A stretch of DNA of 45,726 bases from Acidobacteriota bacterium (lineage in GTDB: Bacteria; Acidobacteriota; Terriglobia; Acidiferrales; UBA7541), in the NCBI GenBank assembly GCA_003166795.1, contig PMUS01000099.1:39795-85520 (forward strand), given 5' to 3'. The notes below the pieces were generated by a model that was given only the letters and a program-made list of their open reading frames with translations, was not told the origin of the DNA and ran no database searches. The position numbers and the translations under genes are program-made. Of the stretch, positions 3,731 through 45,554 are shown one piece after another (positions within the stretch are counted from its first letter, which is position 1; each line of letters begins with the position of its first letter).

Positions 3731-5485
3731 ATGAGTGACGCTGGAAATCTGCCGGCCGTATCCTGGTGGAAGACGCCGCTCCGCTGGTGGGCGCTGCATT
3801 TCGCGCAGCGCCAGGAGCGAGTGCTGCTGGTCTTGAGCATTCTGATTGGCGCGCTGACGGGTCTTTCGGTTGTAGCTTTCATTTTACTTACAGAACGGCT
3901 GGGCATGCGCCTGTACCCCGTGGGTAGCGCGGCTTGGCGGCGAGTGCTGATTCCGGTGGCCGGCTCGCTGGGCATGGGCTACTTGCTGTTCCGCTATTTT
4001 CCTGACGCGCGGGGCAGTGGCGTGCCGCAGACAAAAGCGGCGCTTTATGCGCGCGACGGCGTCATCACGTTCAAGACGATCGTCGGGAAGTTCTTCTGCA
4101 CCGCCGCCACGCTTGCCAGCGGCATCCCGCTGGGACGCGAGGGACCTTCCGTACAAGTTGGCGCCGGCATCGCTTCGGTGCTGGGGCGCCGGCTGGGATT
4201 GCGCCCGGAGAACGTGAAGGCGCTTATTCCCGTGGGCGCGGCGGCCGCGATCGCCGCCGCATTTAATACTCCGCTCGCTGCCGTGGTGTTTGCGCTTGAG
4301 GAAATCGTGGGCGATCTCAACGCGCCGGTGTTGGGTTCCGTCGTGCTGGCGTCCGCGACCTCCTGGCTGGTTCTGAAACTGTGTCTCGGCAACAATCCTC
4401 TATTTGAGGTGCCGCAATACCAACTGGTTCACCCGGTCGAATTTTTGATTTACGCCGTGCTGGGGGTTGTCGGCGGGTTCGTGTCCGTGGTGTTTACAAG
4501 GATGCTGCTTGTGATGCGCGAGCGCTTTCGGCTGTTTCCGCCGTGGACGCGCTGGTTCCAGCCCGCCGCGGGAGGCCTGGTGGCCGGATTGATTGCATGG
4601 CGCGTGCCGCAGGTGTTGGGCGTGGGATATGGGTACGTGGGCGACGTACTCAACAACAAAATGGCGCTCGAACTCATGGCCATGCTGGTTGTGTTCAAAC
4701 TTGTGGCTGTGACGACCAGCTATGCCTCGGGCAACGCAGGCGGAATTTTTGGCCCGAGCCTGTTCATTGGCGCGATGCTGGGAGGCACGCTCGGAAGCGC
4801 GGCGCACCATCTGTGGCCGGCGTACACGGCGGCTCCGGGAGCCTATGCGCTGGTAGGCATGGGCACTTTGTTCGCGGGAATTTTGCGCGCCCCGATGACG
4901 TCCGTGCTGATGATCTTCGAAACGACGCACGACTACGCCGTGATCGTCCCGCTGATGATTTCCAATATGGTGAGCTTTTTCATTTCTTCGAAACTGCAGC
5001 CGGAACCAATCTACGAGGCGCTGGCGATTCAAGATGGCATCCACTTGCCCAGCGAGGGAGCGCGCCGCCGGTATGGCCGGCGACAAGTGGCTCTGGTGAT
5101 GCGCGCCGCCAACGATCTGCTGGCAGCACAGACGACCGTGCAGGAAGCTTTCGAAACGAAGAAGGGCAGCCAATGGCACGCGTGGCCCGTGACAGACGAA
5201 ACCGGCATCGTGGGCGTCGTCAGCCGAGCACAGATCGAACAGGCTGTGGCGAAAGGCGAAGCGAAAAAGCCATTGCGAAATTTCCTCGATAAGCGCGAGT
5301 TTCCGCACGTCCACGCGGACCATCCACTCCACGTGGCGCTCGAACGCATGGGCGCGGCGAAATTGGATCTCTTGCCGGTCGTGAGCCGCGCGAACATTCA
5401 TTATTTGCTGGGGATCGTCGTCTTGCCCGACGTGCTTCATGCGTTTGGCGTCGAGCAGCGTGATTCGCCCGAGCACAAGGTTTGA
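3731..5485 (+). CDS. ClC-family chloride/proton exchanger with C-terminal CBS domains
   Basis: ATG at 3731 gives 584 residues; an in-frame TTG 21 bases upstream has no ribosome site, whereas GGAAGG lies 12 bases before the ATG. The ClC core has GSGVP at 95-99, GREGP at 135-139 with the gating glutamate E137, an NTPLAAVVFALEE segment ending in E190/E191 (the region of the proton glutamate of E. coli ClcA), and a GGIFGPSLFIG selectivity loop. Both gating and proton glutamates being present argues for a Cl-/H+ antiporter rather than a channel. The last 130 residues form a pair of CBS domains that usually bind adenine nucleotides. A TATAAT -10-like box lies at 3646-3651 but I see no convincing -35. 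The gene converges on the next one with a 28-bp gap. Confidence 0.93.
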   Translation: MSDAGNLPAVSWWKTPLRWWALHFAQRQERVLLVLSILIGALTGLSVVAFILLTERLGMRLYPVGSAAWRRVLIPVAGSLGMGYLLFRYFPDARGSGVPQTKAALYARDGVITFKTIVGKFFCTAATLASGIPLGREGPSVQVGAGIASVLGRRLGLRPENVKALIPVGAAAAIAAAFNTPLAAVVFALEEIVGDLNAPVLGSVVLASATSWLVLKLCLGNNPLFEVPQYQLVHPVEFLIYAVLGVVGGFVSVVFTRMLLVMRERFRLFPPWTRWFQPAAGGLVAGLIAWRVPQVLGVGYGYVGDVLNNKMALELMAMLVVFKLVAVTTSYASGNAGGIFGPSLFIGAMLGGTLGSAAHHLWPAYTAAPGAYALVGMGTLFAGILRAPMTSVLMIFETTHDYAVIVPLMISNMVSFFISSKLQPEPIYEALAIQDGIHLPSEGARRRYGRRQVALVMRAANDLLAAQTTVQEAFETKKGSQWHAWPVTDETGIVGVVSRAQIEQAVAKGEAKKPLRNFLDKREFPHVHADHPLHVALERMGAAKLDLLPVVSRANIHYLLGIVVLPDVLHAFGVEQRDSPEHKV

Positions 5486-5513
5486 GGACTCTTGAGAGAA
5501 CGGCAGCGATTTT

Positions 5514-7616
5514 CTATTTGAGGATCTTGAGCAGGCTGCTGTAATCGTCCGTCCAGAGCGCCCTGTAATTTGATGGCGCGAGGATTGTTCCCGCCTGTTC
5601 GATCCGGGGCTGGCCCAAGAATCCGGCTCGGCTGCCCACCAGAATCCACGACGCGGCGTAGACACCCTTCTGATGATCGTCCAGATTGCTGATCATCACC
5701 GCTTCCTTATCGAACCAGGTCGCAGCTGCCGCCACGACCGGCTCGAGGTCCAGATATTTATTCGAAATGTGCACGGCGAGCACTCCATCAGTTTTCAGAT
5801 GGCGGAAATATAGATCGAACGCCTGGCGGGTGAGCAGGTGAACGGGGATCGAATCTCCGGAGAATGCATCCACGGCGAGAATGTCGAACGCTTGCGGAGA
5901 CTGGCGTTCGAGTGACAACCGCGCGTCGCCCAGCACGATGTCAATATTCGCCTGGGAGTCTCGCAGAAATGTGAATTCTTGATTTGCGATTTGGACGTCG
6001 AGCGAATTGATCTCGTAGAACGAGTAATGGTCCCCCGGCTGCCCGTACGACGCGATCGTGCCTGCTCCAAGACCAATTATGCCCATTCGCAGAGCGCCAT
6101 TTTCCTGGGCGGCTTTCAGCGCCACGCCAATTCCGGAGTCCGGCCCGTAATACGTCGTCGGCCAGCGGCGACGGCTCGCCGCCAGGAATTGCAGGCCATG
6201 ATCGATCGTGCCATTCAACAATCTGCGGTAACGCGCGTCGTCGTCCGGCAACTGCACGGCGTTCTCCTTGACGAGGACTACGTTGGGCACGATTCCGTCT
6301 ATCACCCGCAGCACGCCATAGAAATTCCGGACCGCGAGCCGCGCCTCCGCAGACTGCTCCCTGGCGGTGGTGAAAAGGCTGGCAATCAGCGCGACGACAA
6401 GGGCGATCAGGACCAGCCAGGAGGGCTGCCAGCGCGTAATGCGAAATTCACTTTGCGGATCGCGGTAATTGACGACCAGGACCAGAATCGCGCAGATTCC
6501 CATGGCAACCTGCAGCTCGTAGTATCCGGAGAACAGGCGCGGAGCCACGAGCGCGACGAACACGGCTCCGGCGGCGCCGCCCACGGAGCACATCAGGTAA
6601 AACGTCGTCAGGTGCGCCGGATCAGGCTTCAACCGGGCCAGCTCGCCATGGCAGAACATGCAACATACGAAAAGGCCGCAGCAGAAAAGAGGAATCAGAA
6701 CCTTGATGGGAAGCCCGGTGAAGGATGGAGCCAGAGCGTAAGCCATGCCCCCGAGCATCACGCCGAGCAGACGCAAGAAAAGGCCGCGGCGGTACCAGCC
6801 GCGGGCGTCGAAACACAAGATAAAGCTGAGCAGATAGAGACTGAGCGGCAGGACCCACAGAAACGGAACCGACGCCACGTTTTGAGTAATGTGGTTCGTG
6901 ACGGCCAACAGGAGCGCCGAAGCGCAGGCGGCCAGCGCAACCCACAGCAGTTGCAGCTTCCAATCGGGCCGGGGAGTAGTTTCCGGGTTTGCGCGGGTGA
7001 CCGCTTCGCCGCGAGAAAGAAAACCTATCGCGGCGCACAAGAGCGCGACTCCCGCGTATGCCACGGACCATCCGACCGCTTGATGGGAACTGGAAAACAT
7101 TGGCTCGATCAGGATGGGATAGCTCAGCAACGCCAGCATCGAGCCGGCGTTGGATAGCGCGTAGAAACGGTACGGCGCAGCGCCCGCGCGTGTTTTCGTG
7201 TACCACGCCTGCAAAAGCGGGCTGGTTGCGGACAACAAAAAGTAGGGCAATCCCACCGCGACGCCGAGGAGCAGAAGAATATGAACCACGGGCGCAGCGG
7301 GGTCCGACGGCTTCCACGAGGCTTTGGGCAGAATCGGCAGCGCCAGAAAACTGGCGGCGAGTATCGCCGCATGAATTCGGCCCTGCGTTCGTGGCTGAAA
7401 TCTTCCGGACAAAAGATGCGCGTAGAAATATCCGAGCAACAGCACGAGCTGGAAAAACAGCAGGCAGACGATCCAAACCGCCGCGCCGCCTCCAAACCAC
7501 GGCAGGATGATCTTGGCGATGAGCGGCTGCACTTGAAACAGGAGGAACGCGCTCGAAAAAATCGCGACGCCGTAAAGCAACGTCGAAGGGCCGCGGGAAA
7601 CCGAACTGGCACTCAT
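5514..7616 (-). CDS. Fused multi-span membrane protein/spermidine synthase-like methyltransferase-fold protein
   Basis: A 700-residue protein. Residues 1-420 contain about a dozen hydrophobic helices, opening with ILPWFGGGAAVW after a long first span. The C-terminal ~230 residues form a Rossmann fold of the spermidine synthase type: GIIGLGAGTIASYG (AdoMet-site glycine loop), FYEINSLDV (acidic residue at the end of strand 2), VLGDARL, and DILAVDAFSGDSIPVHLLT. Proteins of this architecture are widespread and usually annotated as fused MFS/spermidine synthase. Their reaction is not established and true polyamine synthesis should not be assumed. It sits alone, convergent with the ClC gene. Confidence 0.85.
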   Translation of the reverse strand: MSASSVSRGPSTLLYGVAIFSSAFLLFQVQPLIAKIILPWFGGGAAVWIVCLLFFQLVLLLGYFYAHLLSGRFQPRTQGRIHAAILAASFLALPILPKASWKPSDPAAPVVHILLLLGVAVGLPYFLLSATSPLLQAWYTKTRAGAAPYRFYALSNAGSMLALLSYPILIEPMFSSSHQAVGWSVAYAGVALLCAAIGFLSRGEAVTRANPETTPRPDWKLQLLWVALAACASALLLAVTNHITQNVASVPFLWVLPLSLYLLSFILCFDARGWYRRGLFLRLLGVMLGGMAYALAPSFTGLPIKVLIPLFCCGLFVCCMFCHGELARLKPDPAHLTTFYLMCSVGGAAGAVFVALVAPRLFSGYYELQVAMGICAILVLVVNYRDPQSEFRITRWQPSWLVLIALVVALIASLFTTAREQSAEARLAVRNFYGVLRVIDGIVPNVVLVKENAVQLPDDDARYRRLLNGTIDHGLQFLAASRRRWPTTYYGPDSGIGVALKAAQENGALRMGIIGLGAGTIASYGQPGDHYSFYEINSLDVQIANQEFTFLRDSQANIDIVLGDARLSLERQSPQAFDILAVDAFSGDSIPVHLLTRQAFDLYFRHLKTDGVLAVHISNKYLDLEPVVAAAATWFDKEAVMISNLDDHQKGVYAASWILVGSRAGFLGQPRIEQAGTILAPSNYRALWTDDYSSLLKILK

Positions 7617-34237: not shown

Positions 34238-36001
34238 ATGAATAGACGCAAGTTGCTGTCGCTGCTGGGAATGTCTCCGGTGCTGCTAACCGGCAATCCT
34301 GCACAAGCGGGTCAAACCAAACATGCTGCCGCTCCGGCTGCCGACCCAGGCGCGGTCAAAATCACGACCGTCAATCCGAAAGGCACTCCGCCGTCCATTC
34401 AACTGATTCCGATGGCTCCTCGCCTCGACTCGCTCGATGGCAAAACCGTGTATCTCGTGGACACGGGATTCCACGGTTCGGACGCCCTCTTGCATCAGGT
34501 CGAGCTGTGGTTCAACAGGAACATGCCGAGCGTCACCCTGGTCTTCAAGCGCAAAGCCGGTCCCTACGCGCAAGACGATCCGCCCCTTTGGAAGGAAATC
34601 AAGGAAAAGGGCAACGCGGTCATCATGGCCACGGGCCATTGAAGCACGTGCACCCCAGCGACCGTCGGTCACTGCATAACAACTGAAAAGATGGGCATCC
34701 CCAGCGTTCCCCTGGTTACCAAGGCGTTCAAGGATCTCGCGATCCTCAACGCGGGAAAACGGGGAATGCCGCTTGAGCGCATCTGCTTCACGCCGCATCC
34801 CGTGTGGGGCAAGACTCCCGAAGAATTACGTGTGTACGTGGATGGTCCGGACCCGATCACCGGAAAGCCGCTGATGAAGGAAGTGGTGGATGGGCTGACC
34901 GTGCCGCTCAGCGCGGACGAAAAGAAGACGGGAATCGTTTCCGTCTCCGTGGGGCCTCCGACCTTTACGGACACCGCCGAGAATTTGCAGGAATTTTACC
35001 TCAACAACGGCTACACGGATTTTCTCCCGATCGTCCTGCCTACCCAGGAAAAAGTGGATGCGATGCTGAAGGGCTCGAGCCACCATCCCGACGAGGTCAT
35101 CGGCAAAATGGCGGCGGGCGCGTATCCACCATGGACCTACACGGTCCGGCAGGTGGCTGCAAGCGCGGTGATGGCGGGATGCAGGCCCGAATATTTCCCG
35201 ATTTTGCTCGCGATCGCCTCCACGGGAATCGCTTCGCTTTTCAGCTCGACGAATTCGTTCGCGTTTTCGATGATCATCAATGGTCCGATCCGCGACAAGC
35301 TCGAATTTAACTATGGGATCGGGGCCCTGGGGCCGTTCGCGCAGGCCAATGCCACGATTGGGCGCGCCTGGACGATCATGTCGAAGAATCTTGGAAACGG
35401 CGGAATTCCCGGCGACACGTATCTGGGTTCGGTGGGCAACAACCTGAACTACAACAACGTGGTGATTGCCGAGAACGAAGAGGCAAGCCCGTGGGATCCA
35501 TTCCACGTCCAAAGAGGCTTCAAGAAGGAAGAGAACGTCGTCAGTTTGTTCCGCGGGCTGGGCGTGGTTCCCGGACAGGTAGCTCGGGGCAGCAGCGTCA
35601 ACACCAGCCCGATGTTTGATGCCCAGCTGAGCGACCTCTTCAGCACGTTCACGGGATTCTTCGGCGCGTTGGTGATTGCCGACCCGTTGGTAGCCGTGCG
35701 CTTGAAGGAACAGGGCTACGACACGAAAGAAAAGCTAATTGATTGGCTATACAAGAATACGACTCAGACCGTGAAGGATTACAAAGGCCGGAACTACTCC
35801 TATCTGTTCGAGTACCCGCAGGCGTTGCAGGGCGTCGAACCCTTCGCGACCTGGTACAAACTTCCCGACGATGCCGTGATCCCGCATTTCCCGAGGGCGA
35901 GCAGCTTCAACGTTGTGGTCACGGGCGGACAGACGAACGCTTACCCGCAAGCCGCGAATATGAGTTACGGGGTCAGCGTCTCGATTGACAAGTGGATGTG
36001 A
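34238..36001 (+). CDS. Predicted selenoprotein, UGSC-type domain plus C-terminal domain, copy 1
   Basis: Read through the in-frame UGA at 34640-34642 as selenocysteine, this is a 587-residue protein. GGTGGGG precedes the ATG by about 8 bases. The N-terminus MNRRKLLSLLGMSPVLL is a twin-arginine-like signal. Residues about 45-200 match the UGSC-type family: MAPRLDSLDGKTVYLVDTGF, AVIMATGH-U135-STC138-TPATVGHC146, then EKMGIPSVPLVTKAFKDL and FTPHPVWGK. The U-x-x-C pair is a thioredoxin-like redox motif. Residues about 245-587 form an uncharacterised domain with VMAGCRPEYFPILLA, INGPIRDKL, NATIGRAW and VIAENEEASPWDPFHVQ. The final stop is also UGA, with no hairpin. Function is unknown; an exported oxidoreductase is inferred. 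The alternative, two separate genes, is unlikely because the second half has no ribosome site. Confidence 0.88.
34640..34677 (+). promoter_or_regulatory. Predicted bacterial SECIS element, copy 1
   Basis: UGA followed by a hairpin: CAG-C-GACC (34656-34663), loop GUC (34664-34666), GGUC-A-CUG (34667-34674), with one C/A mismatch. A possible basal 3-bp extension pairs 34648-34650 with 34675-34677. The loop G is 22 bases after the UGA, within the spacing known for bacterial SECIS elements, whose apical loop usually carries a GU. Confidence 0.7.
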
Positions 36002-36016
36002 CAACCCGATAAGGAT

Positions 36017-36067
36017 TGTCATCCCGAGGGAATCCGCCGAAGGCGGTTGACCGAGAGATCTGCTGTC
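36017..36067. repeat. Intergenic TGTCATCCCGAG…GATCTGCTG dispersed repeat
   Basis: Between selenoprotein copies 1 and 2 lies TGTCATCCCGAGG, a perfect hairpin CCGCC-GAA-GGCGG (36034-36046) and GAGAGATCTGCTGTC. This matches, from general knowledge, a short palindromic intergenic element (TGTCATcCCGAGc...GGATCTGC) found in many bacteria, including Acidobacteriota. It carries no transposase. Confidence 0.6.
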
Positions 36068-36110
36068 AACGACCGGATCGGAAGTATCGGCCACTGTTTT
36101 GAGGTGAACC

Positions 36111-37880
36111 GTGAATAGACGAAAGCTCCTGTCCCTGCTGGGAATGTCTCCGGCGCTCCTCGCCGGCGCTCAAATGGAAGCGCAGCAGCCCAAGGCCGCG
36201 AAATCCGGCAAAGTCGCCGCCGCGGAAAACGCCCAGTTCGAAGCGCTGAATCCGAAGGGCTCGCCGCCCCCCGTCAAGCTGATTCCGATGGCGCCCCGCC
36301 TCGACAGCGTTCACGGCAAGACAATCTATCTGGTTGACACCGGATTCATGAGCGGAGGCGTGCTCCTGCAGCAGATGCAGATCTGGTTCAACAAGAACTA
36401 TCCCGACGTCACCGTTGTATTCCGCAAAAAAGCGGGATCCTACATGGAAGACGACCCGCCGCTGTGGAAGGAAATCAAGGAAAAGGGCAACGCGGCGATC
36501 ATGGCCATCGGCCATTGAAGCAGCTGCACACCAGCGACCGTCGGTCACTGCATAACAATGGAGAAGTTGGGGATTCCCTCCGTCCCCATGGCGACGAAGT
36601 CGTTCGCCGATCTGGCGAAATCAAATGCCTCGAAGCGAGGCATGCCGCACATTCGCGCGTGTTTCACGCCGCACCCTGTTTGGGGCAAGACCGCCGAACA
36701 GTTGATGGCGTACGTCGAAGGAAACGATCCCGTCTCCGGCAAGCCGCTGATGCAGGAAATCATCGACGGGCTGACGGTGCCCCTCATCGCCGAAGACACA
36801 AAAACCGGGATGATGGACGTCAACGTCGGCCCGCCGGTCTACGGCCCCGACACGCTTGATAATCTGCAAATACATTTTCTCAACAATGGGATGACGGACT
36901 TCCTTCCCATCATCATTCCCACGCCGGAAAAAGTGGACGCGATGCTCAAAGGCTCGAGCCACCATCCCGACGAAGTGGTCGGCAAGATGGCCGCGGGCGC
37001 ATTTGCCGCGTGGACGTTCACCGTGCGGCAAGTGGCCGTGAACGCGGTGATGGCCGGATGCGAGCCGGAATATTTCCCGATCCTCCTGGCGGTAGCTTCG
37101 TCTGGAATGGCGGCGCTTGGCAGCTCCACCTCTTCCTTCGCGTACTCGATGGTCATCAATGGACCGATTCGCGACAAGCTCAACATGAATTACACTATCG
37201 GGGCGATGGGTCCTTTCGCGCAACCGAACGCAACCATCGGGCGCGCGTGGACGCTCATCGGAAAGAATCTCGGTAACGGCGGAATTCCCGGCGACACGTA
37301 CATGGGCTCGCAGGGCAACAACACGAACTACAACAACATCGTGATCGCGGAAAATGAAAAGGACAGCCTCTGGACGCCGTATCACGTGCAAAAGGGATTC
37401 AAGCCCGAGGATAATGTCGTCAGCCTGTTCGCGGGCGAGGACATTCGCCAGGGCCACGGCGCGCGTGGCGCGGGCGTGCTCGAGAATCCGATGTTCGACG
37501 ATCAGATCAGCGACATGTTCCGCACGCTCACAAGCCAGTTCGACGCGCTCGTGATTTGCGATCCGCTTACGATCAAACGCCTCGTCGAGCAGGGCTACGA
37601 CACTAAGGAAAAATTGACGGACTGGTTGTGGAAGAACACGATGCGCACCGCCAAGGACTACCGTGACTCCGCGTTTGTTTACACTTTCCATTATCCGCGC
37701 GCGCTTCGCGGTGAAGAACCCTACGCCACGTGGTACAAATGCCCCGAGGGCACGCTGATTCCCTATTGGCCCAAGCCGGATAACATCGTTCTCGTGTGCG
37801 CCGGCGGGCAAACGAATCCGTTCTTCCAGGTCGGTAACCTGACCTATCGCGTAAGCGTCTCAATTGATAAGTGGATGTGA
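36111..37880 (+). CDS. Predicted selenoprotein, UGSC-type domain plus C-terminal domain, copy 2
   Basis: GTG 36111, with GAGGTG four bases upstream, to UGA 37880, reading through UGA 36516-36518, gives 589 residues. Signal MNRRKLLSLLGMSPALL is twin-arginine-like. The active-site block is AIMAIGH-U136-SSC139-TPATVGHC147, then MEKLGIPSVPMATKSFADL and ACFTPHPVWGK. The C-terminal domain keeps VMAGCEPEYFPILLA, INGPIRDKL, NATIGRAW, GNGGIPGDTY and VIAENEKDS. By eye about two thirds to three quarters of the C-terminal domain is identical to copy 1. It has extra cysteines late in the chain (ALVICDPL, WYKCPEG, IVLVCAGG) not found in the others. The gap from copy 1 is 109 bp and holds the dispersed repeat. 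Confidence 0.88.
36516..36553 (+). promoter_or_regulatory. Predicted bacterial SECIS element, copy 2
   Basis: Same hairpin as copy 1: left arm 36532-36539, loop GUC 36540-36542, right arm 36543-36550. The differences from copy 1 are AGCAGC for AGCACG and ACA for ACC before the left arm; the stem and loop are unchanged. Confidence 0.7.
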
Positions 37881-37958
37881 GCGCACGGTCACCTCGATAA
37901 GAGGGAGCGCGCGGCGTTGTTGAGGTAAAATGGGGTCTACACAACCTAGGGGGTGGAA

Positions 37959-39707
37959 ATGAGCATGAATCGGCGAAGATTGCTGTCTTTGATCGGAATC
38001 TCTCCGGCGCTCCTGGCGGGTGCGACTGCCCAAGCGCAGTCCAAGGCAAAGGGAAAGAATGGAAAGCCTGGCGTCCCCGCTGAAATCAAGCTCACCGCGC
38101 TGAATCCGCGCGGCGTCCCGCCTCCGATTACGTTGATTCCGATGGCTCCGCGCCTCGCCACCTTGGATGGCAAGACGATTTACCTCGTCTCGGACGGTTT
38201 CCCGGGCGCCGACCATTTCCTCGCGCAGGTCGGGAGTTGGTTCACGAAGAACATGCCCAACGTGACGACGGTCTACCGGTTGAAGGCCGGAGGATTCGCC
38301 GACGACGATCCAAAGCTGAACGCGGAGATCAAGGACAAGGGGCAGGCCGTCATCATGGCCATTGGGCATTGAAGCACGTGCACCCCAGCGACCGTTGGTC
38401 ACTGCATAGCATACGAAAAGATGGGCATTCCGGCAGCTCCCATAGTGACGATCGCTTTTAAGGATCTCGCCCAAACAAACTGCGCAAAAAGAGGCATGCC
38501 GCTCCAGCGAATTTCCTACACCCCGCATCCGGTGTGGGGCAAGACCGACGAGCAGATGTACGCCTACCTCGAAGGAAACGATCCGGTCCATAACGTACCG
38601 CTGATGAAAGAAATCGTGGAATCACTCACGAGGCCTCTGACCGCGGACGAAATGAAAACGGGGACGGTCACCCCTCCGGTCGGTGCGCCTACCTTCACGG
38701 ACACGGCGGATAACCTGCAGCAATATTTCCTCGACAACGGAATGACGGACACCATGCCGATCATCATTCCCACGCAGGAAAGAGTGGATGCCATGCTCAG
38801 GGCCACGAGCCACAAGCTCGACGAAGTGGTCGGCAAGATGACTCCTGCGCAGGGTGCTTTCCCGGCGTGGTCATTCACGGTGCAACAGTGCGCGGTCAAC
38901 GCGGTGATGGCAGGCGCCCTGCCGGAATATTTTCCGACGATTCTGGCAATCGCTTCCACCGGGATTTCCGCGCTCTTCAGCTCCACCAACTCGCTGGTGT
39001 CCGCGGCCGTGATCAACGGCCCGATTCGCGACAAGCTCACCATGAATTACGGTATCGGCGCCATGGGTCCCTTCAACCAGCCGAACGCCACAATCGGCCG
39101 AGCGTGGACTTTGATGTCCAGAAACCTCGATGGCGGCGGAATCTGCGGCGAGACGTACATGGGCTCGCAGGGCAACGTCATCAACTACAGCAACCTGATT
39201 ATTCCCGAGAACGAAAAGGACAGCCCGTGGCCTCCCTTCCACGTGCAGAAGGGCTTCAAACCCGAGGAGAGCGTGATTAGCTTCTTCTTTGGATTCTGCA
39301 TCACGCAAGGGCAGGGAGGCAAAGGTCTCGGTGTGAAACCGGTGCCGCTCTACAACGTGGCCATGTCCGCCAACGTCGCACCCTTCGCTTCGCTCTTCGG
39401 CGCGCTCTTCCTCCTGGATCCGCTGGTGGCCAATGGACTGGGCGATCTGGGATTCAAGACGAAGGACTCGGTTGTGGACTGGCTCCAGAAAAATACGACG
39501 GTCACAGTGAAGGACGTCAAATCCATGCTATTCAGCGGGCTCCCGAGAGGTCCGGAGGCGGCGAACCTTAAGGACGACGACGTAATCCCGAAGTGGCAAA
39601 AATCCGACGCTTTCAACCTCGTCGTGGTCGGAGGCCAGACCAACCCGTATCACCAGCTGGCGAACATGAGCTACCGGGTAAGCGTGTCAATCGACAAGTG
39701 GACCTAG
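37959..39707 (+). CDS. Predicted selenoprotein, UGSC-type domain plus C-terminal domain, copy 3
   Basis: ATG 37959, five bases after AGGGGG, gives 582 residues when UGA 38370-38372 is read as selenocysteine (ATG 37965 is an alternative start that aligns with the other copies). Signal MSMNRRRLLSLIGISPALL is twin-arginine-like. The motif is AVIMAIGH-U138-STC141-TPATVGHC149, then YEKMGIPAAPIVTIAFKDL. Compared with copies 1 and 2 it has lost the cysteine in VMAGC (now VMAGALPEYFP) and in CFTPHP (now SYTPHP) and gained one in GGICGETY, with others in QCAVNA and FGFCITQG. It is the most divergent copy, and the only one ending in UAG. A strong terminator follows. Confidence 0.87.
38370..38407 (+). 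promoter_or_regulatory. Predicted bacterial SECIS element, copy 3
   Basis: Left arm 38386-38393, loop GUU 38394-38396, right arm 38397-38404. From the UGA through CACUGCAUA the DNA is identical to copy 1 except C to T in the loop, although flanking codons differ synonymously and non-synonymously. Confidence 0.7.
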
Positions 39708-40509: not shown

Positions 40510-42129
40510 TTACGGCAAAGCGAACGCAACATAGACGTTGCCTGCCGTCTCGAAGATGTATTGCTTGCCATCCACTTCGTAACTGATCGGATTCGACCGC
40601 GCGGCGTGCCCCATATAAAATTGCCACAGCGGTTTGCCGCTGGAAGCATCCAGCGCGAAAAAGTTTCCTTCGTCGGTGCCGCTAAATACCAATCCGCCCG
40701 CAGTTGAGAGCACCGGAACCCACGCCGGAGCCAGCAGCTTGAATTGCCACCGTAGCTTTCCCGAAGTCGCGTCGAGCGCGCGAATCGCGCCGTACGATTG
40801 TTCGCCGGCGAGCGCGCGGATTCCTCCTCCTCCCACGATCCCTTTCGGAGGTCCCGGTTCGATCTTGCCCTGACCCTTGATGAAGTAAGCGCCCGTTTCG
40901 TGGACGCTCACGTAGAAAAGTCCCGTGTCCGGACTGTAGGAGGGGCTCGTCCAGTCAACGCCTCCGGTGATACTCGGATAAACCAACGTTCCGGCGCCAA
41001 GAGTTGGCTCCTGATCGGGCGCGAGTATCGGGCGGCCGTCGGCATCAAGTCCCTTGGCCCACGTTTCCTTCACAAATGGCTGGCCCGTAATGAATTTTCC
41101 GGTGACGCGATCGAGTACGTAATAAAAGCCGTTGCGATTCGCAAAGCCGAGCAGCTTGCGCGGCTTCCCGCCGATCGTGGCGTTAAACAAAATTGCGGGC
41201 TCGTCCGAATCCCAGTCGTGGTTCTCGTGCGGAGAGAACTGGAAATACCATTTCAGTTTTCCCGTGTCCGCATCCAGCGCGATCACAGAACAGGTATAGA
41301 GGTTGTCGCCGGGGCGTTCGTCGTCGTTGAAGTCCGGCGCGGGATTTCCGGTGCCCCAGTAAATCAGGTTCAGCTCGGGATCGTATGAGCCGTTGTTCCA
41401 CGTGGTAGCTCCTGCGCTTTCGGAAGCGCCCACGCCCCAGCTTTCCGCGCCGGGTTCTCCCGGCCTCGGCGTGGTCCAAAATCGCCAAAGCCGTTTGCCG
41501 GTCTTCGCATCGTACGCGTCGAGAAAACCCCGGACCGCTGCTTCGCTTCCGGCGCTGCCGATAATCACTTCGTCTTTGATGGCAAGGGGAGGTCCCGTCA
41601 TGGCATAGCCCATGGCGTTGTCCGCGACGTGCACATTCCACCTGACCGCGCCGGTCTTCGCGTCGAGCGCGACCAGGTGCGAATCCGCTGTACCGATGAA
41701 AACCGTGTCGCCAAGTATCGCCACACCACGGCTCGTCGCGTATAAACCGATCGACACGACGTGTTCGGGAAGCACGGGTGACCAACTCCAGAGTCTGAGT
41801 CCGGTGCGAACGTCCAATGCCGTTACCGTGCTGGGCGGTTCGGTGATGTACATCACGCCGTCCACTACGATGGGAGACGCCTCCAGATTCGACACGGCCT
41901 TGCTCGGCTGGTACATCCACGCCACTTTCAAACTTGAGATGTTCTCGCGGTTGATCTGCTTGAGCGACGAAAACTGCTGCGACGAATAACTGCCGCCGTA
42001 GGTCAGCCAGCTTTGCGGCTCGCTTTGCGAGTGCAGAATACGATCGTAGGGCACATTCTGCGCGAGAGACGGCGCCGGACGGCATGCAAGAAGGGCAGCC
42101 AGGATCAGGGCGTATTTGATAATTTTCAT
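40510..42129 (-). CDS. PQQ-dependent dehydrogenase (quinoprotein)
   Basis: A 539-residue periplasmic propeller with signal peptide MKIIKYALILAALLACRPAPSLA. PQQ-propeller blades such as VIALDADTGKLKWYFQ and IRALDATSGKLRWQF repeat through the chain. The Ca2+/PQQ region is represented by WGTGNPAP and the catalytic Asp by HDWDSDEP. The vicinal Cys-Cys disulfide of classical methanol/ethanol dehydrogenases, normally before (N/S)RGVA, is absent: the sequence is IGLYATSRGVAI. Its ATG overlaps the stop of the upstream cytochrome gene by one base, so the two form an operon and the cytochrome is its likely electron acceptor. Substrate is unknown, presumably an alcohol or polyol. Confidence 0.88.
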   Translation of the reverse strand: MKIIKYALILAALLACRPAPSLAQNVPYDRILHSQSEPQSWLTYGGSYSSQQFSSLKQINRENISSLKVAWMYQPSKAVSNLEASPIVVDGVMYITEPPSTVTALDVRTGLRLWSWSPVLPEHVVSIGLYATSRGVAILGDTVFIGTADSHLVALDAKTGAVRWNVHVADNAMGYAMTGPPLAIKDEVIIGSAGSEAAVRGFLDAYDAKTGKRLWRFWTTPRPGEPGAESWGVGASESAGATTWNNGSYDPELNLIYWGTGNPAPDFNDDERPGDNLYTCSVIALDADTGKLKWYFQFSPHENHDWDSDEPAILFNATIGGKPRKLLGFANRNGFYYVLDRVTGKFITGQPFVKETWAKGLDADGRPILAPDQEPTLGAGTLVYPSITGGVDWTSPSYSPDTGLFYVSVHETGAYFIKGQGKIEPGPPKGIVGGGGIRALAGEQSYGAIRALDATSGKLRWQFKLLAPAWVPVLSTAGGLVFSGTDEGNFFALDASSGKPLWQFYMGHAARSNPISYEVDGKQYIFETAGNVYVAFALP

Positions 42130-42956
42130 TATTCCCCTTTCAAGCTCGCAAGATATGCGACTAGGTCGTCTATCTGCGTATCCGACAATTTGCCCTTGTA
42201 GCTGGGCATCACGCTTTTGCCCGGCTCCTTCTTGAACTCGCGCAGGTCGCTCTTCTGGAACGAATGGAACGTGCCATTGACGTCTTTGATCACGATGCGA
42301 AACGAGTCTTCCGTCACGCGCGTGCCATCGAATGTATGCCCGTCCTTGGTGACGATGTGGACGAACATGTAATCAAGGAGTCCGCCGGTTTCAAGGAACA
42401 CGCGCGCTTGGGGCAAATCCGAGCCGGGATACAGCAGCGTCGTCTTCAGGTAGCCGGGGCCGCGTAATTGGCCAACCTTCGTGAGTTCAGGGCCGGCGCC
42501 GCTGCCTTCTCCCGAAATAATGTGGCACGCGGCGCAACCGCTCGTGTCGTAGACGTCTTTACCCTTCACCGCATCGCCCGTCACCGTGCCGGAATCCTTG
42601 TGCGTGAGCGTGAGCAGATAGGCGATGACCTGCTGAATTTGCGACGCATCCAGCTGCCCCGCGAAAGACGGCATTCCGCCGCTCATTCCGTTCTTGATCA
42701 CGTCCGCGACCGCGGGCGCGCCCAGCCTCATGGGGATGGCCTGAATATTGGGGCCCATCGCGCCGCCGCCATCGAGGCCGTGGCAGGTGGAACAGCGCGT
42801 TTCAAAAGTCTGTTTGCCCTGATCAACGTCCGCGGCCTGCGGATTTGCGATCGGCGCATCCTGTCCCGCGCGCGGGGAAGCAGCGGCCCGATTCGCCGAC
42901 ATTCCCCACAACGGAATAATTACCGCGGCAATCCACAAACGGCGAATCGCAGTCAT
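42129..42956 (-). CDS. Diheme cytochrome c
   Basis: ATG 42956 preceded by GGGGGA gives 275 residues; upstream in-frame codons extend into a region unlike a signal peptide. The signal is MTAIRRLWIAAVIIPLWGMSANRAAA. Two class I heme c sites are CSTCH (55-59) and CAACH (141-145). Candidate methionine ligands are GGMPSF for the first heme and SVMPSYKGKLSD near the C-terminus, where a ~70-residue DGHTFDGTRVTEDSFRIVIKD insert separates it from the second CxxCH. That insert resembles the 'heme-binding domain' tail of Verrucomicrobia/Acidobacteria cytochromes. It should pass electrons from the downstream PQQ enzyme to the respiratory chain. Confidence 0.9.
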   Translation of the reverse strand: MTAIRRLWIAAVIIPLWGMSANRAAASPRAGQDAPIANPQAADVDQGKQTFETRCSTCHGLDGGGAMGPNIQAIPMRLGAPAVADVIKNGMSGGMPSFAGQLDASQIQQVIAYLLTLTHKDSGTVTGDAVKGKDVYDTSGCAACHIISGEGSGAGPELTKVGQLRGPGYLKTTLLYPGSDLPQARVFLETGGLLDYMFVHIVTKDGHTFDGTRVTEDSFRIVIKDVNGTFHSFQKSDLREFKKEPGKSVMPSYKGKLSDTQIDDLVAYLASLKGE

Positions 42957-43032
42957 GAGTATTCCCCCACTAGCTCGGCCAACCGCGCCGCTTGCGAGTG
43001 CAGGCCGGCGCTTCGTCGCATCAAGATGGGCG

Positions 43033-43068
43033 TAGTGTAACTCTGCGAACCAACCCACGGAACACGAA
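43033..43068. repeat. 36-bp direct repeat, copy A (upstream of cytochrome c)
   Basis: 30 of 36 positions match copy B at 45637-45672; the core TGTAACTCTGCGA and CGGAACACGAA are identical. It lies 78-112 bases upstream of the cytochrome c start and just beyond the kinase stop. Confidence 0.8.
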
Positions 43069-43160
43069 ATTGCCGTCGTGCTGCCGGCCCTAACCAAGGA
43101 AGAGCGCGTAGTGACTTATCGGGCCAACGAAAGGTCACGTGCGAGTGTGAGCAGGAATCG

Positions 43161-45554
43161 CTATTGAGGGAGGCCGAGACCGCGCAAGAGATCCACGAAC
43201 CGGGGATCGGCGCGCACCGAGTCCAGCAAGGGGAAACGCACAACGAGGCTCAGGTCGCTGGATTGGTCGGAGAGTGCCCGGTTCAAATACTCGAATGCTT
43301 TGTCGCGATCCCCTCTCAGCGCGAAGGTCAAGGCCCCGTCAGCGTACCAATCCCCTACTTTGGGCAATGCGACGACCGCGAGTTCGCTGTAGCCTTTGGC
43401 GTCCGGGCTCCAGTTGCCGGGGCTCGGAGAGAATTTCTGCATTTCGCTGATGGCTTCGGCGAAGCGTCCCGTTGTGGCGTACAAGAAACCGAGCTTAAGA
43501 TGTGCCGGTCCGAAATTGGGATCGCGTTCCAGGGTCTTTTGAAACTGCGCAAGAGCCTCGGGGTAGCGTCGAGCGGTCATCAAGGTCGCTGCATAGTTGG
43601 TGTTGACGATCGGAGAAAGTGGGTCGAGCGACAAGGCTATCTGAAATTCGTGCAGTGCCTCGTCAAGGCGATTTTCGGGAACCAGAAATGTGAACGCATA
43701 AAAATAGTGCACGGATGCACTGTTCGGGCTGAGTTGGAGCGCATGCCGGAACTCGGGCTCCGCTTCGCTCCATCTCCAGGCCATGGCCAGCGCAGCGGCC
43801 CGTGAAGCATGTGCCTCGGCAAGGGAGTCGTCGAGCTCAAGCGCTTTTCGAGAAGCTTCGTCGGCCAGCACACGAGCTTGCCGGGGGGTGATGCCTACGC
43901 CGTAACTGGGGGCGACGTTGTACGTGTCCGCAAGCCCGGTGTAGGCCAAGGCATAGTTGGGGTCGGCGGCAATCGCCTGCTGAAACAGGCCGATACTTTC
44001 CTTCAGGCCCTCGGTGGTACGCCCGTACCAAAGCTGGCGACCCTCCAGATACAGCCGGTACGCTTCCGGGTTCGTCGTGCCGGCGCTACCCAACCGCTGC
44101 TTCTCATCCGCGCCCACGTGCATGCGCAATCTGTCGGCGAGGTCGCGGGTGATGTCGCTCTGCACCTGCATGATGTCTGCCATTTGCGGAGAATAGTGCG
44201 CCCCCCAAAGTTCCGTGCCGTCGGCCGTATTGACCAGGTCGGCCTGAACGCTCAATCCCCCTGCATGCTGCGTGACAGTTCCCAGCAGCACCGCTCTCAC
44301 ATTCAGGTCCTGGCCGATTTTTTGCGGGAGCTCCTGATTTCCCTTGTAGCGAAATACCGTACTGCGCGCCATGACCTTCAGATTTGGCAGTTGCGAGAGC
44401 GCACTGATCAGGCTATCGGTCAAACCGTCGCTCATGTACTCCTTGTTCGGGTCATCCGTCGCATTCACAAACGGCAGCACGGCTATGGAATCAATTTGGC
44501 CGGCTTGGGACCTCCCGCGCAGAAAGTAGATCCCGCCGCCGGCGGCAACCACGAGAATCGTAGCGACGACGGCGCCTGCCAGATACTTTCGCGAACGCAA
44601 GCTCGGCGCGGCAGCTGGAATTGATGACGAACTCGCGGGCGCGGCCGCGGCCGGGTACGCCGAGGCGCTGGAACGGCCGGAGTCGAGGTCGCGCTTCAGC
44701 CGTGCGAGATCGGTGCGGAGATCGGCGGCATTCTGATAGCGCAGGTTGCGGTCCTTCTCGAGCGCTTTATGGATGATCCGCTCAAAATCCGCGGGCATGT
44801 CGTGATTGAATCGCAGCACGGGAATGGGCTCGCCATCCAGGATTGCCTTGAAGATCTCGGCGGAGCTGCCTCCGCGAAATGCGAGCTGACCGGTAGCCAT
44901 CTCATAGAGCACCGCGCCGAAGGAGAACAAGTCGCTCCGGGCGTCAACGTCCTTGGCGCGAGCCTGCTCCGGCGACATATATGCGACGGTGCCGAGCGTC
45001 GAGCCGGGGCTGGTAAGGTGCTGTTCACCGATCGTCTCCGCCATCGAATTCGCCATTGCGGCGTGGCCCGACAGACTGGTGGCAACCACATTCTTAGCCA
45101 GACCAAAATCGAGCAACTTGGCGTGGCCGCGCTTGGTGACGAGGATGTTGGCGGGCTTGATGTCGCGGTGGACGATCCCTTGGGAATGCGCCGCGTCCAA
45201 CGCATCGGCGATCTCGATTGCGAGCGTGAGGAGGGTGTCGTTCTCCAGCGGGCCTGCGGCAATCATGTGCCGCAGCGTCACCCCGTCAAGAAATTCCATG
45301 GCGATAAAAGTGTGCTCGCCATGCTTGCCTATTTCGTGGATCGTGCAAATATTGGGATGATTGAGCCCGGAAGCCGCGCGGGCTTCCCTGCGAAAACGCT
45401 CGAGCGCCTGCGGGTCCTTCGACATTTCATCGGGAAGGAATTTCAGGGCGACGAAGCGGCCAAGTTCGGTGTCCTCGGCCTTGTACACGATGCCCATGCC
45501 GCCGCCACCGACTTTTTCGACAATTCGGTAGTGCGATACGATTTCGCCGATCAC
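43161..45554 (-). CDS. Ser/Thr protein kinase with transmembrane helix, TolB-N-like domain and TPRs
   Basis: A 797-residue protein starting at GTG 45554. The kinase domain (about 10-270) has the glycine loop GGGGMG (16-21), K38, HRDIKPAN (129-136) and DFGLA (149-153), so it should be active. A transmembrane helix lies near 335-350 ([22 protein letters not shown]). A TolB-N/FlgO-like module ([33 protein letters not shown]) and about six TPR units ([55 protein letters not shown]) follow in the presumed periplasm. This layout is a hallmark of Acidobacteriota signalling kinases. Targets are unknown. It is flanked by the 36-bp direct repeat. Confidence 0.93.

Follow-up and report, generated by a model that had tools for sequence, protein, structure and literature searches.

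Are three consecutive pairs of open reading frames (ORFs), each pair sharing one frame and divided by a single UGA codon, six short genes or three genes in which the UGA is read as selenocysteine (Sec)? This question is raised by the window analyzed here, a stretch of 45,726 nucleotides from an Acidobacteriota bacterium (contig PMUS01000099.1; C113:39795-85520 of a draft genome of 3.92 Mb that is 92.87% complete). The evidence from sequence argues very strongly for three selenoprotein genes of the UGSC family, hereafter genes 1, 2 and 3. In the following, L numbers denote loci, mostly of relatives, and G000 this genome.

Three reading frames with an internal UGA codon

Translation with TGA as Sec confirmed the initial annotation, according to which each pair forms one frame split by a UGA and interrupted by no other stop. 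It resulted in three genes of approximately 585 residues, each with exactly one internal UGA:

34238..36001, plus strand: gene 1, UGSC-type selenoprotein, 587 residues, Sec at codon 135, terminal UGA; ortholog at L057 4596-6356
36111..37880, plus strand: gene 2, UGSC-type selenoprotein, 589 residues, Sec at codon 136, terminal UGA
37953..39707, plus strand: gene 3, UGSC-type selenoprotein, Sec at codon 140 counting from GTG 37953; ortholog at L057 6415-8154
34640..34642, plus strand: gene 1 UGA read as Sec
36516..36518, plus strand: gene 2 UGA read as Sec
38370..38372, plus strand: gene 3 UGA read as Sec

Gene 3 starts either at GTG 37953 or at ATG 37965, of which the latter fits the paralogs better. 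The previously noted context Gly-His-U-Ser-(Thr/Ser)-Cys-Thr-Pro-Ala-Thr-Val-Gly-His-Cys surrounds the UGA in all three genes. The motif is U-S-T-C or U-S-S-C and not the literal U-G-S-C, which is present in a copy on contig C85 of the same genome. The proposed assignment to the UGSC-type family was borne out by Pfam UGSC (PF24696), which spans the UGA with E values of 4.4e-25 (gene 1), 2.4e-27 (gene 2) and 6.1e-25 (gene 3) and scores of 88.8-96.6 bits, above the gathering score of 25. The NCBIfam model NF041046 matches at 73, 75.7 and 75.8 bits, below its equivalog cut-off of 125, i.e. the proteins are homologous and lie outside the narrow equivalog. The UGSC domain with Sec is followed by a C-terminal domain of approximately 380 residues, for which no match was found among Pfam or NCBIfam families.

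The genes for Sec decoding, for which a search elsewhere in the genome had been suggested, are all located on the window's own contig. tRNA-Sec (selC, UCA anticodon, 67 bits), selD (match covering positions 1-309 of 311), selA and selB form one run at C113:101258-105759 on the minus strand, 22-26 kb past the end of gene 3. A second selA-like gene lies in pieces at G000:C104:636-2001 on a contig of 5.5 kb. In a sample of 297 genomes of the phylum, UGSC was matched in 33 genomes with an E value of at most 0.001, and in 32 over the cut-off. All 33 UGSC-bearing genomes have a selB match at E <1e-80 (table read by eye), whereas the selB cut-off is passed by 194 of the 297 genomes overall.

Relatives were collected by a contig scan with the C-terminal part, resulting in at least 544 confirmed stretches, of which the best 80 loci were kept. 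The closest among these best 80 are Acidobacteriota, several of them Candidatus Acidiferrales. In viral contigs, none of 29 pattern matches was confirmed. At the UGA column, 99 aligned rows from many phyla have a letter (25 further rows stop short of the column), and these comprise 80 with TGA, 12 with cysteine (Cys) and 7 with another residue. In L073, L088 and L096, Leu, Asn, Met, Ser or Ala replaces Sec or Cys, with more than one such member per locus; these family members are possible non-catalytic partners.

The search for homologs with Cys at the UGA position, also suggested beforehand, was productive. In a tree of 44 rows, including 10 of the 12 Cys rows, Cys is found at three places: the pair L061a/L063, L061b, and a clade of seven with six Pseudomonadota and one Actinomycetota. 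L061 is a tandem run of three genes, two with Cys and one with Sec.

A mechanical ORF list gives six ORFs, as had been predicted for automatic annotation, and this agrees with six separate genes, with termination at the UGA and a new start at the ATG of each second half. The second halves had been stated to lack ribosome sites. By sight, a purine-rich GAAAAG lies upstream of two of these ATGs and nothing resembling a ribosome site upstream of the remaining one. However, the ATGs 34691 and 38421 encode the Met of EKMG and 36558 that of ITMEKLG; they sit at non-homologous codons and are therefore not conserved starts. In addition, the Cys relatives inspected as ORFs (two in L061; L080, from an alphaproteobacterium; L090) are uninterrupted single genes, the UGSC domain crosses the UGA, and the synonymous constraint described below continues just past it. 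Six separate genes are very improbable on this evidence.

Putative RNA signal, selection and copy number

Sixteen rows of the Acidiferrales group with Sec were used to analyze the sequence conservation after the UGA. The pairwise codon identity was 0.87 at the 7 invariant columns within +1 to +14 compared to 0.47 at the 113 other invariant columns, a value reached by none of 20000 random sets. The positions +1 to +12 after the UGA form the most synonymously constrained 12-codon window of the gene. Putative hairpins of the selenocysteine insertion sequence (SECIS) type were located as follows:

34656..34674, plus strand: putative SECIS-type hairpin of gene 1, 7/7 pairs
36532..36550, plus strand: putative SECIS-type hairpin of gene 2, 7/7 pairs
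38386..38404, plus strand: putative SECIS-type hairpin of gene 3, 7/7 pairs, source of the tested structure

Across 24 distinct Sec sites, the hairpin pairs are kept at 0.97 compared to 0.65 under synonymous recoding (0 of 3000), whereas in 3 Cys sites they are not kept (0.62 compared to 0.61 under recoding). A cis element downstream of the Sec UGA is read as probably real from these sequence comparisons, with the exact hairpin form being putative.

Compared to its closest relative, the ortholog in L057, gene 1 has a ratio of nonsynonymous to synonymous substitution rates (dN/dS) of 0.11 before and 0.05 after the UGA, and is under purifying selection on both sides. For gene 3 and its L057 ortholog, dN/dS was 0.10 after the UGA and not computable before it due to saturation of dS. 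In the tree, gene 1 and gene 3 group with two different genes of L057 and gene 2 falls into a third clade, so that the array consists of old paralogs and a recent triplication is rejected. L057 has two adjacent copies with upstream neighbors similar to those in the window (by sight), and a third copy, past two pyrroloquinoline quinone (PQQ) dehydrogenases, lies apparently on the same contig (G401:C292).

The triplet is not isolated, since this genome has 9 UGSC matches with one in-frame TGA in each. None was found in 14 control genomes. Among 89 genomes of the host's family, UGSC occurs in 13, all within the 20 of the window's genus, and in none of the 12 other genera. The 13 genus members have 9, 17, 1, 13, 9, 12, 12, 10, 14, 11, 14, 11 and 5 copies (sum 138). 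By subtraction, 130 of these 138 matches have one in-frame TGA, with TGA confirmed as the Sec codon only in fetched loci; 8 rows are without a stop (by eye), 4 of which fall short of the Sec position. Nine genomes from another genus of the phylum contain 10-28 UGSC matches each. Of the 26 rows listed for the richest genome (G113, 28 matches), 19 contain a single TGA, 1 contains two and 6 are without any. Single counts are approximate, because the genomes are drafts with contamination of up to 7%. Further tandem runs are located at G409:C21:470960-475409 and on G413:C71, G413 being perhaps the L061 genome.

Two copies in the own genome, L036 (G000:C47:9670) and G000:C109:17479, end early or hit masked bases and look decayed or misassembled. 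Such broken copies would fit a premature stop that arose by pseudogene decay or by an assembly error, but the single in-frame TGA in nearly all genus matches, the predominance of TGA at the UGA column and the low dN/dS of gene 1 leave this explanation hardly any probability. A general reassignment or suppression of UGA in the host (e.g. as Trp or Cys), for which no support was found, is equally negligible: genes 1 and 2 terminate at UGA, so that the codon means both Sec and stop within one gene and is not simply reassigned, relatives have Cys and not Trp, and the full sel set is present.

At the level of sequence, a single frame through the UGA, a complete sel set, exchange with Cys, selection on both sides of the UGA and a synonymous constraint coupled to Sec are established. 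The genome does not lack Sec machinery, and among the Cys relatives inspected as ORFs no homologs ending at the UGA with independent second genes were found, either of which had been named as speaking against selenoproteins. Genes 1-3 almost certainly encode selenoproteins.

Gene neighborhood, predicted structure and export

Downstream of gene 3, the window contains a pair of genes that recurs in the family:

40510..42129, minus strand: PQQ-dependent dehydrogenase-like protein, recurrent family neighbor (PF01011, E 2e-91)
42129..43097, minus strand: cytochrome c, recurrent partner of the PQQ dehydrogenase (PF00034/PF13442)

A large serine/threonine kinase-like protein with repeats resembling tetratricopeptide repeats (by sight) is encoded at 43161-45554 on the minus strand. 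PQQ dehydrogenases flank copies in L155, L157, L159, L160 and L162 (several named by sight), and a cytochrome c adjoins the PQQ gene in L155 too and, by sight, in L159. Across three genomes of the genus, a PF01011 gene was located within 5 kb of 13 of 21 UGSC clusters (sub-cut-off members being counted in two of these) compared to 1.1 expected under random placement, the PF01011 set including weaker, possibly BamB-like matches. For aldehyde dehydrogenases as a control, counted as genes, the number was 1 of 21 (Fisher p 0.00017), and this one is located in the UGSC locus L155.

Besides this aldehyde dehydrogenase, L155 contains a Rieske oxygenase of the vanillate O-demethylase type. An AMP-binding ligase, a glyoxalase/dioxygenase-superfamily protein, an amidohydrolase and an RraA-like aldolase were found in L156, GCV_T proteins near copies in L157, L158 and L062, and a tannase/feruloyl esterase with a cupin in L062. 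Together these neighbors form what we take to be the typical company of lignin-type aromatic use.

In some proteobacterial relatives, the C-terminal domain is part of a separate gene:

L127 4425-6044; L133 4452-6044; L132 4440-6017: thioredoxin-like/C-terminal-domain fusion genes of alpha-/gammaproteobacterial relatives, UGSC next

In Roseobacter sp. (L127) and Henriciella sp. (L133), a thioredoxin-like N-terminal part is fused to the C-terminal domain and UGSC is the next gene; selA and selB lie directly upstream of both pairs, and a selD fusion downstream in L133. The thioredoxin-like match is over the Pfam cut-off in L127, marginal in L133 and below the cut-offs in L132 and in L136 from Chloroflexi. 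In L135, the C-terminal domain is encoded by a gene of 340 residues at 5001-6023. The two genes after it, one of 800 residues and one with Cys clusters of the ferredoxin type, resemble a glycyl radical enzyme with its activase (by sight).

The structure model of the full-length protein reached a mean predicted local distance difference test (pLDDT) value of 91.7 (68 rows) and that of the C-terminal domain alone 92.3 (78 rows). The predicted order of the UGSC core is strand 70-75, helix, strand 100-105, helix, strand 127-133, Sec, helix 138-151, strand, helix. U135 is thus placed between strand 127-133 and helix 138-151, i.e. after the third strand of an alpha/beta core. Judged from the order of the predicted secondary structure elements only, the domain is Rossmann/flavodoxin-like. 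In the thioredoxin fold, the redox motif comes after the first strand. The predicted strand order is therefore not that of a thioredoxin fold, which differs from the GOS (Global Ocean Sampling) paper of 2008, where the UGSC fold is called likely thioredoxin-like in the part available (PMC2398784). Foldseek against the PDB resulted in nothing at E 0.001 or better for the full or the C-terminal model; cyclic amide hydrolases and fumarate hydratases, the top C-terminal matches with a probability of 0.2 or less, and the best hit of a PDB sequence search (E 0.066) were not used.

The N-terminus resembles a signal of the twin-arginine translocation (Tat) pathway, with a twin-arginine motif, a hydrophobic stretch and an AxA site (NRRKLLSLLGMSP); the signal motif NRRKLLSLLG...AxA was noted by eye. 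By sight, the N-termini of most Acidiferrales rows resemble NRRKLLSLLGMSPALLAG and finish in an AxA-like site, and most proteobacterial relatives seem to be without a Tat-like signal. A location of the gene 1-3 products in the cell envelope is likely, as far as these sequence features indicate.

The selenoproteins could also be general envelope antioxidants or thiol-disulfide/peroxide reductases, with the link to PQQ dehydrogenases explained by shared catabolic islands or oxidative by-products. The U-x-x-C motif and the thioredoxin-like fusion in relatives are consistent with this, but the strand order predicted for the UGSC domain is not thioredoxin-like, and divergent amplified paralogs beside different catabolic genes suggest substrate diversity. 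Such a general role is rather unlikely, though it is clearly the strongest of the alternatives.

Proposed mechanism and relation to known selenoproteins

Three paralogous selenoproteins of the UGSC family, with the mechanism outlined here, are very probably the best explanation of the locus. SelB and Sec-tRNA would decode the UGA, aided by a hairpin 16-34 nt past its first base, and the protein would fold and then be exported by Tat. Sec would be placed at the helix start after the third alpha/beta strand, with a resolving Cys three residues later (U-x-x-C), and the site may work together with the approximately 380-residue C-terminal domain. The selenolate active site could be recharged by a thiol reductant; the partner domain carries a thioredoxin-like fusion in some relatives. 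When plant-derived alcohols or aromatics are used, the enzymes may act in the cell envelope on the products of PQQ dehydrogenases, possibly with a separate paralog for each class of substrate; the chemistry given here is conjecture. The role tied to catabolism by PQQ dehydrogenases is put forward tentatively. In a more specific and quite improbable version, the exported selenoenzymes would accept the carbonyls formed by periplasmic PQQ dehydrogenases and use selenolate attack to cleave or reduce a neighboring bond (e.g. an aryl ether). This would open a route into lignin-type aromatics that depends on selenium and is possibly aerobic, and the C-terminal domain would have a new fold.

Several observations weigh against these proposals. 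The hairpin was chosen from one row (gene 3) of the tested set and its contrast comprises only three Cys sites, the free-energy tests were weak (mean z -0.63 for Sec, n=83; -0.09 for Cys, n=12; p 0.14), and an Rfam scan of the window gave no match. The sequence after the terminal UGA fits 6/7 pairs in gene 1 and 2/7 in gene 2, so that pairing alone does not explain how the UGA codons are discriminated. Neither Sec nor Cys is carried by 7 of the 99 relatives, 8 of the 21 UGSC clusters have no PQQ dehydrogenase nearby, and the 21 clusters are not independent because the three genomes share ancestry. The Tat-like N-terminus was recognized by sight alone.

Among known selenoproteins, FdnG-type formate dehydrogenase is also exported by Tat, but is a molybdenum enzyme with an unrelated sequence. 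D-proline reductase PrdB and glycine reductase GrdB (TIGR04483, PF07355) share the U-x-x-C motif. PrdB matches near the motif with E 0.061 in gene 1 and 0.034 in gene 3 (12.7 and 13.6 bits compared to a cut-off of 300) and not in gene 2. Homology with GrdB/PrdB was not shown by these sub-threshold matches; hhalign to GRDB-like short proteins gave a probability of 0.3%, though those appear to be without the Sec segment. One short GRDB-like protein in a Terriglobia genome (L138 1501-2031) has an in-frame TGA near its start and is possibly a selenoprotein or a run-in.

The UGSC family (PF24696; NF041046; the UGSC-containing protein of the GOS data), as far as the available part of its description goes, is alike in the homologous domain across the Sec site, the U-x-x-C motif and the prevalence of Sec with few Cys forms (PMC2398784). 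Genes 1-3 differ from it in the motif U-S-(T/S)-C, scores of 73-76 bits compared to 125, the C-terminal fusion, the Tat-like signal and their multicopy nature. The same part of that paper reported a fusion of UGSC to a conserved unknown domain (UGSC/Unknown_1) in 2008, which is alike in joining UGSC to a conserved domain, possibly but not necessarily the present C-terminal one. Amplification and tandem runs are features of the present genes that are unmentioned there for UGSC/Unknown_1. The initial annotation had regarded a triplicate run fused to a large extra domain as undescribed; the fusion to an unknown domain was thus already known, as is the family. In a literature search judged by title and abstract and of incomplete coverage, no report was found of an amplified UGSC family in Acidobacteriota, of a UGSC protein exported by Tat or of a link to PQQ. 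Since the scores lie under the NCBI equivalog cut-off and ORF lists split the genes in two, such genes are easily missed.

According to the available part of a 2026 review, selenoprotein-rich bacteria are mostly anaerobes and selenoproteins are rarely kept by aerobic bacteria (PMC13188914). Here, a single selenoprotein family, apparently exported, has been amplified in a soil lineage in which some of the neighboring genes point to oxygen-using catabolism (the Rieske oxygenase, the dioxygenase-superfamily protein and the PQQ dehydrogenases with cytochrome c). The PQQ-dehydrogenase neighborhood offers a concrete lead to the function of UGSC proteins, and the L061 array, in which Sec and Cys paralogs stand in tandem, provides a natural experiment on the retention of Sec.

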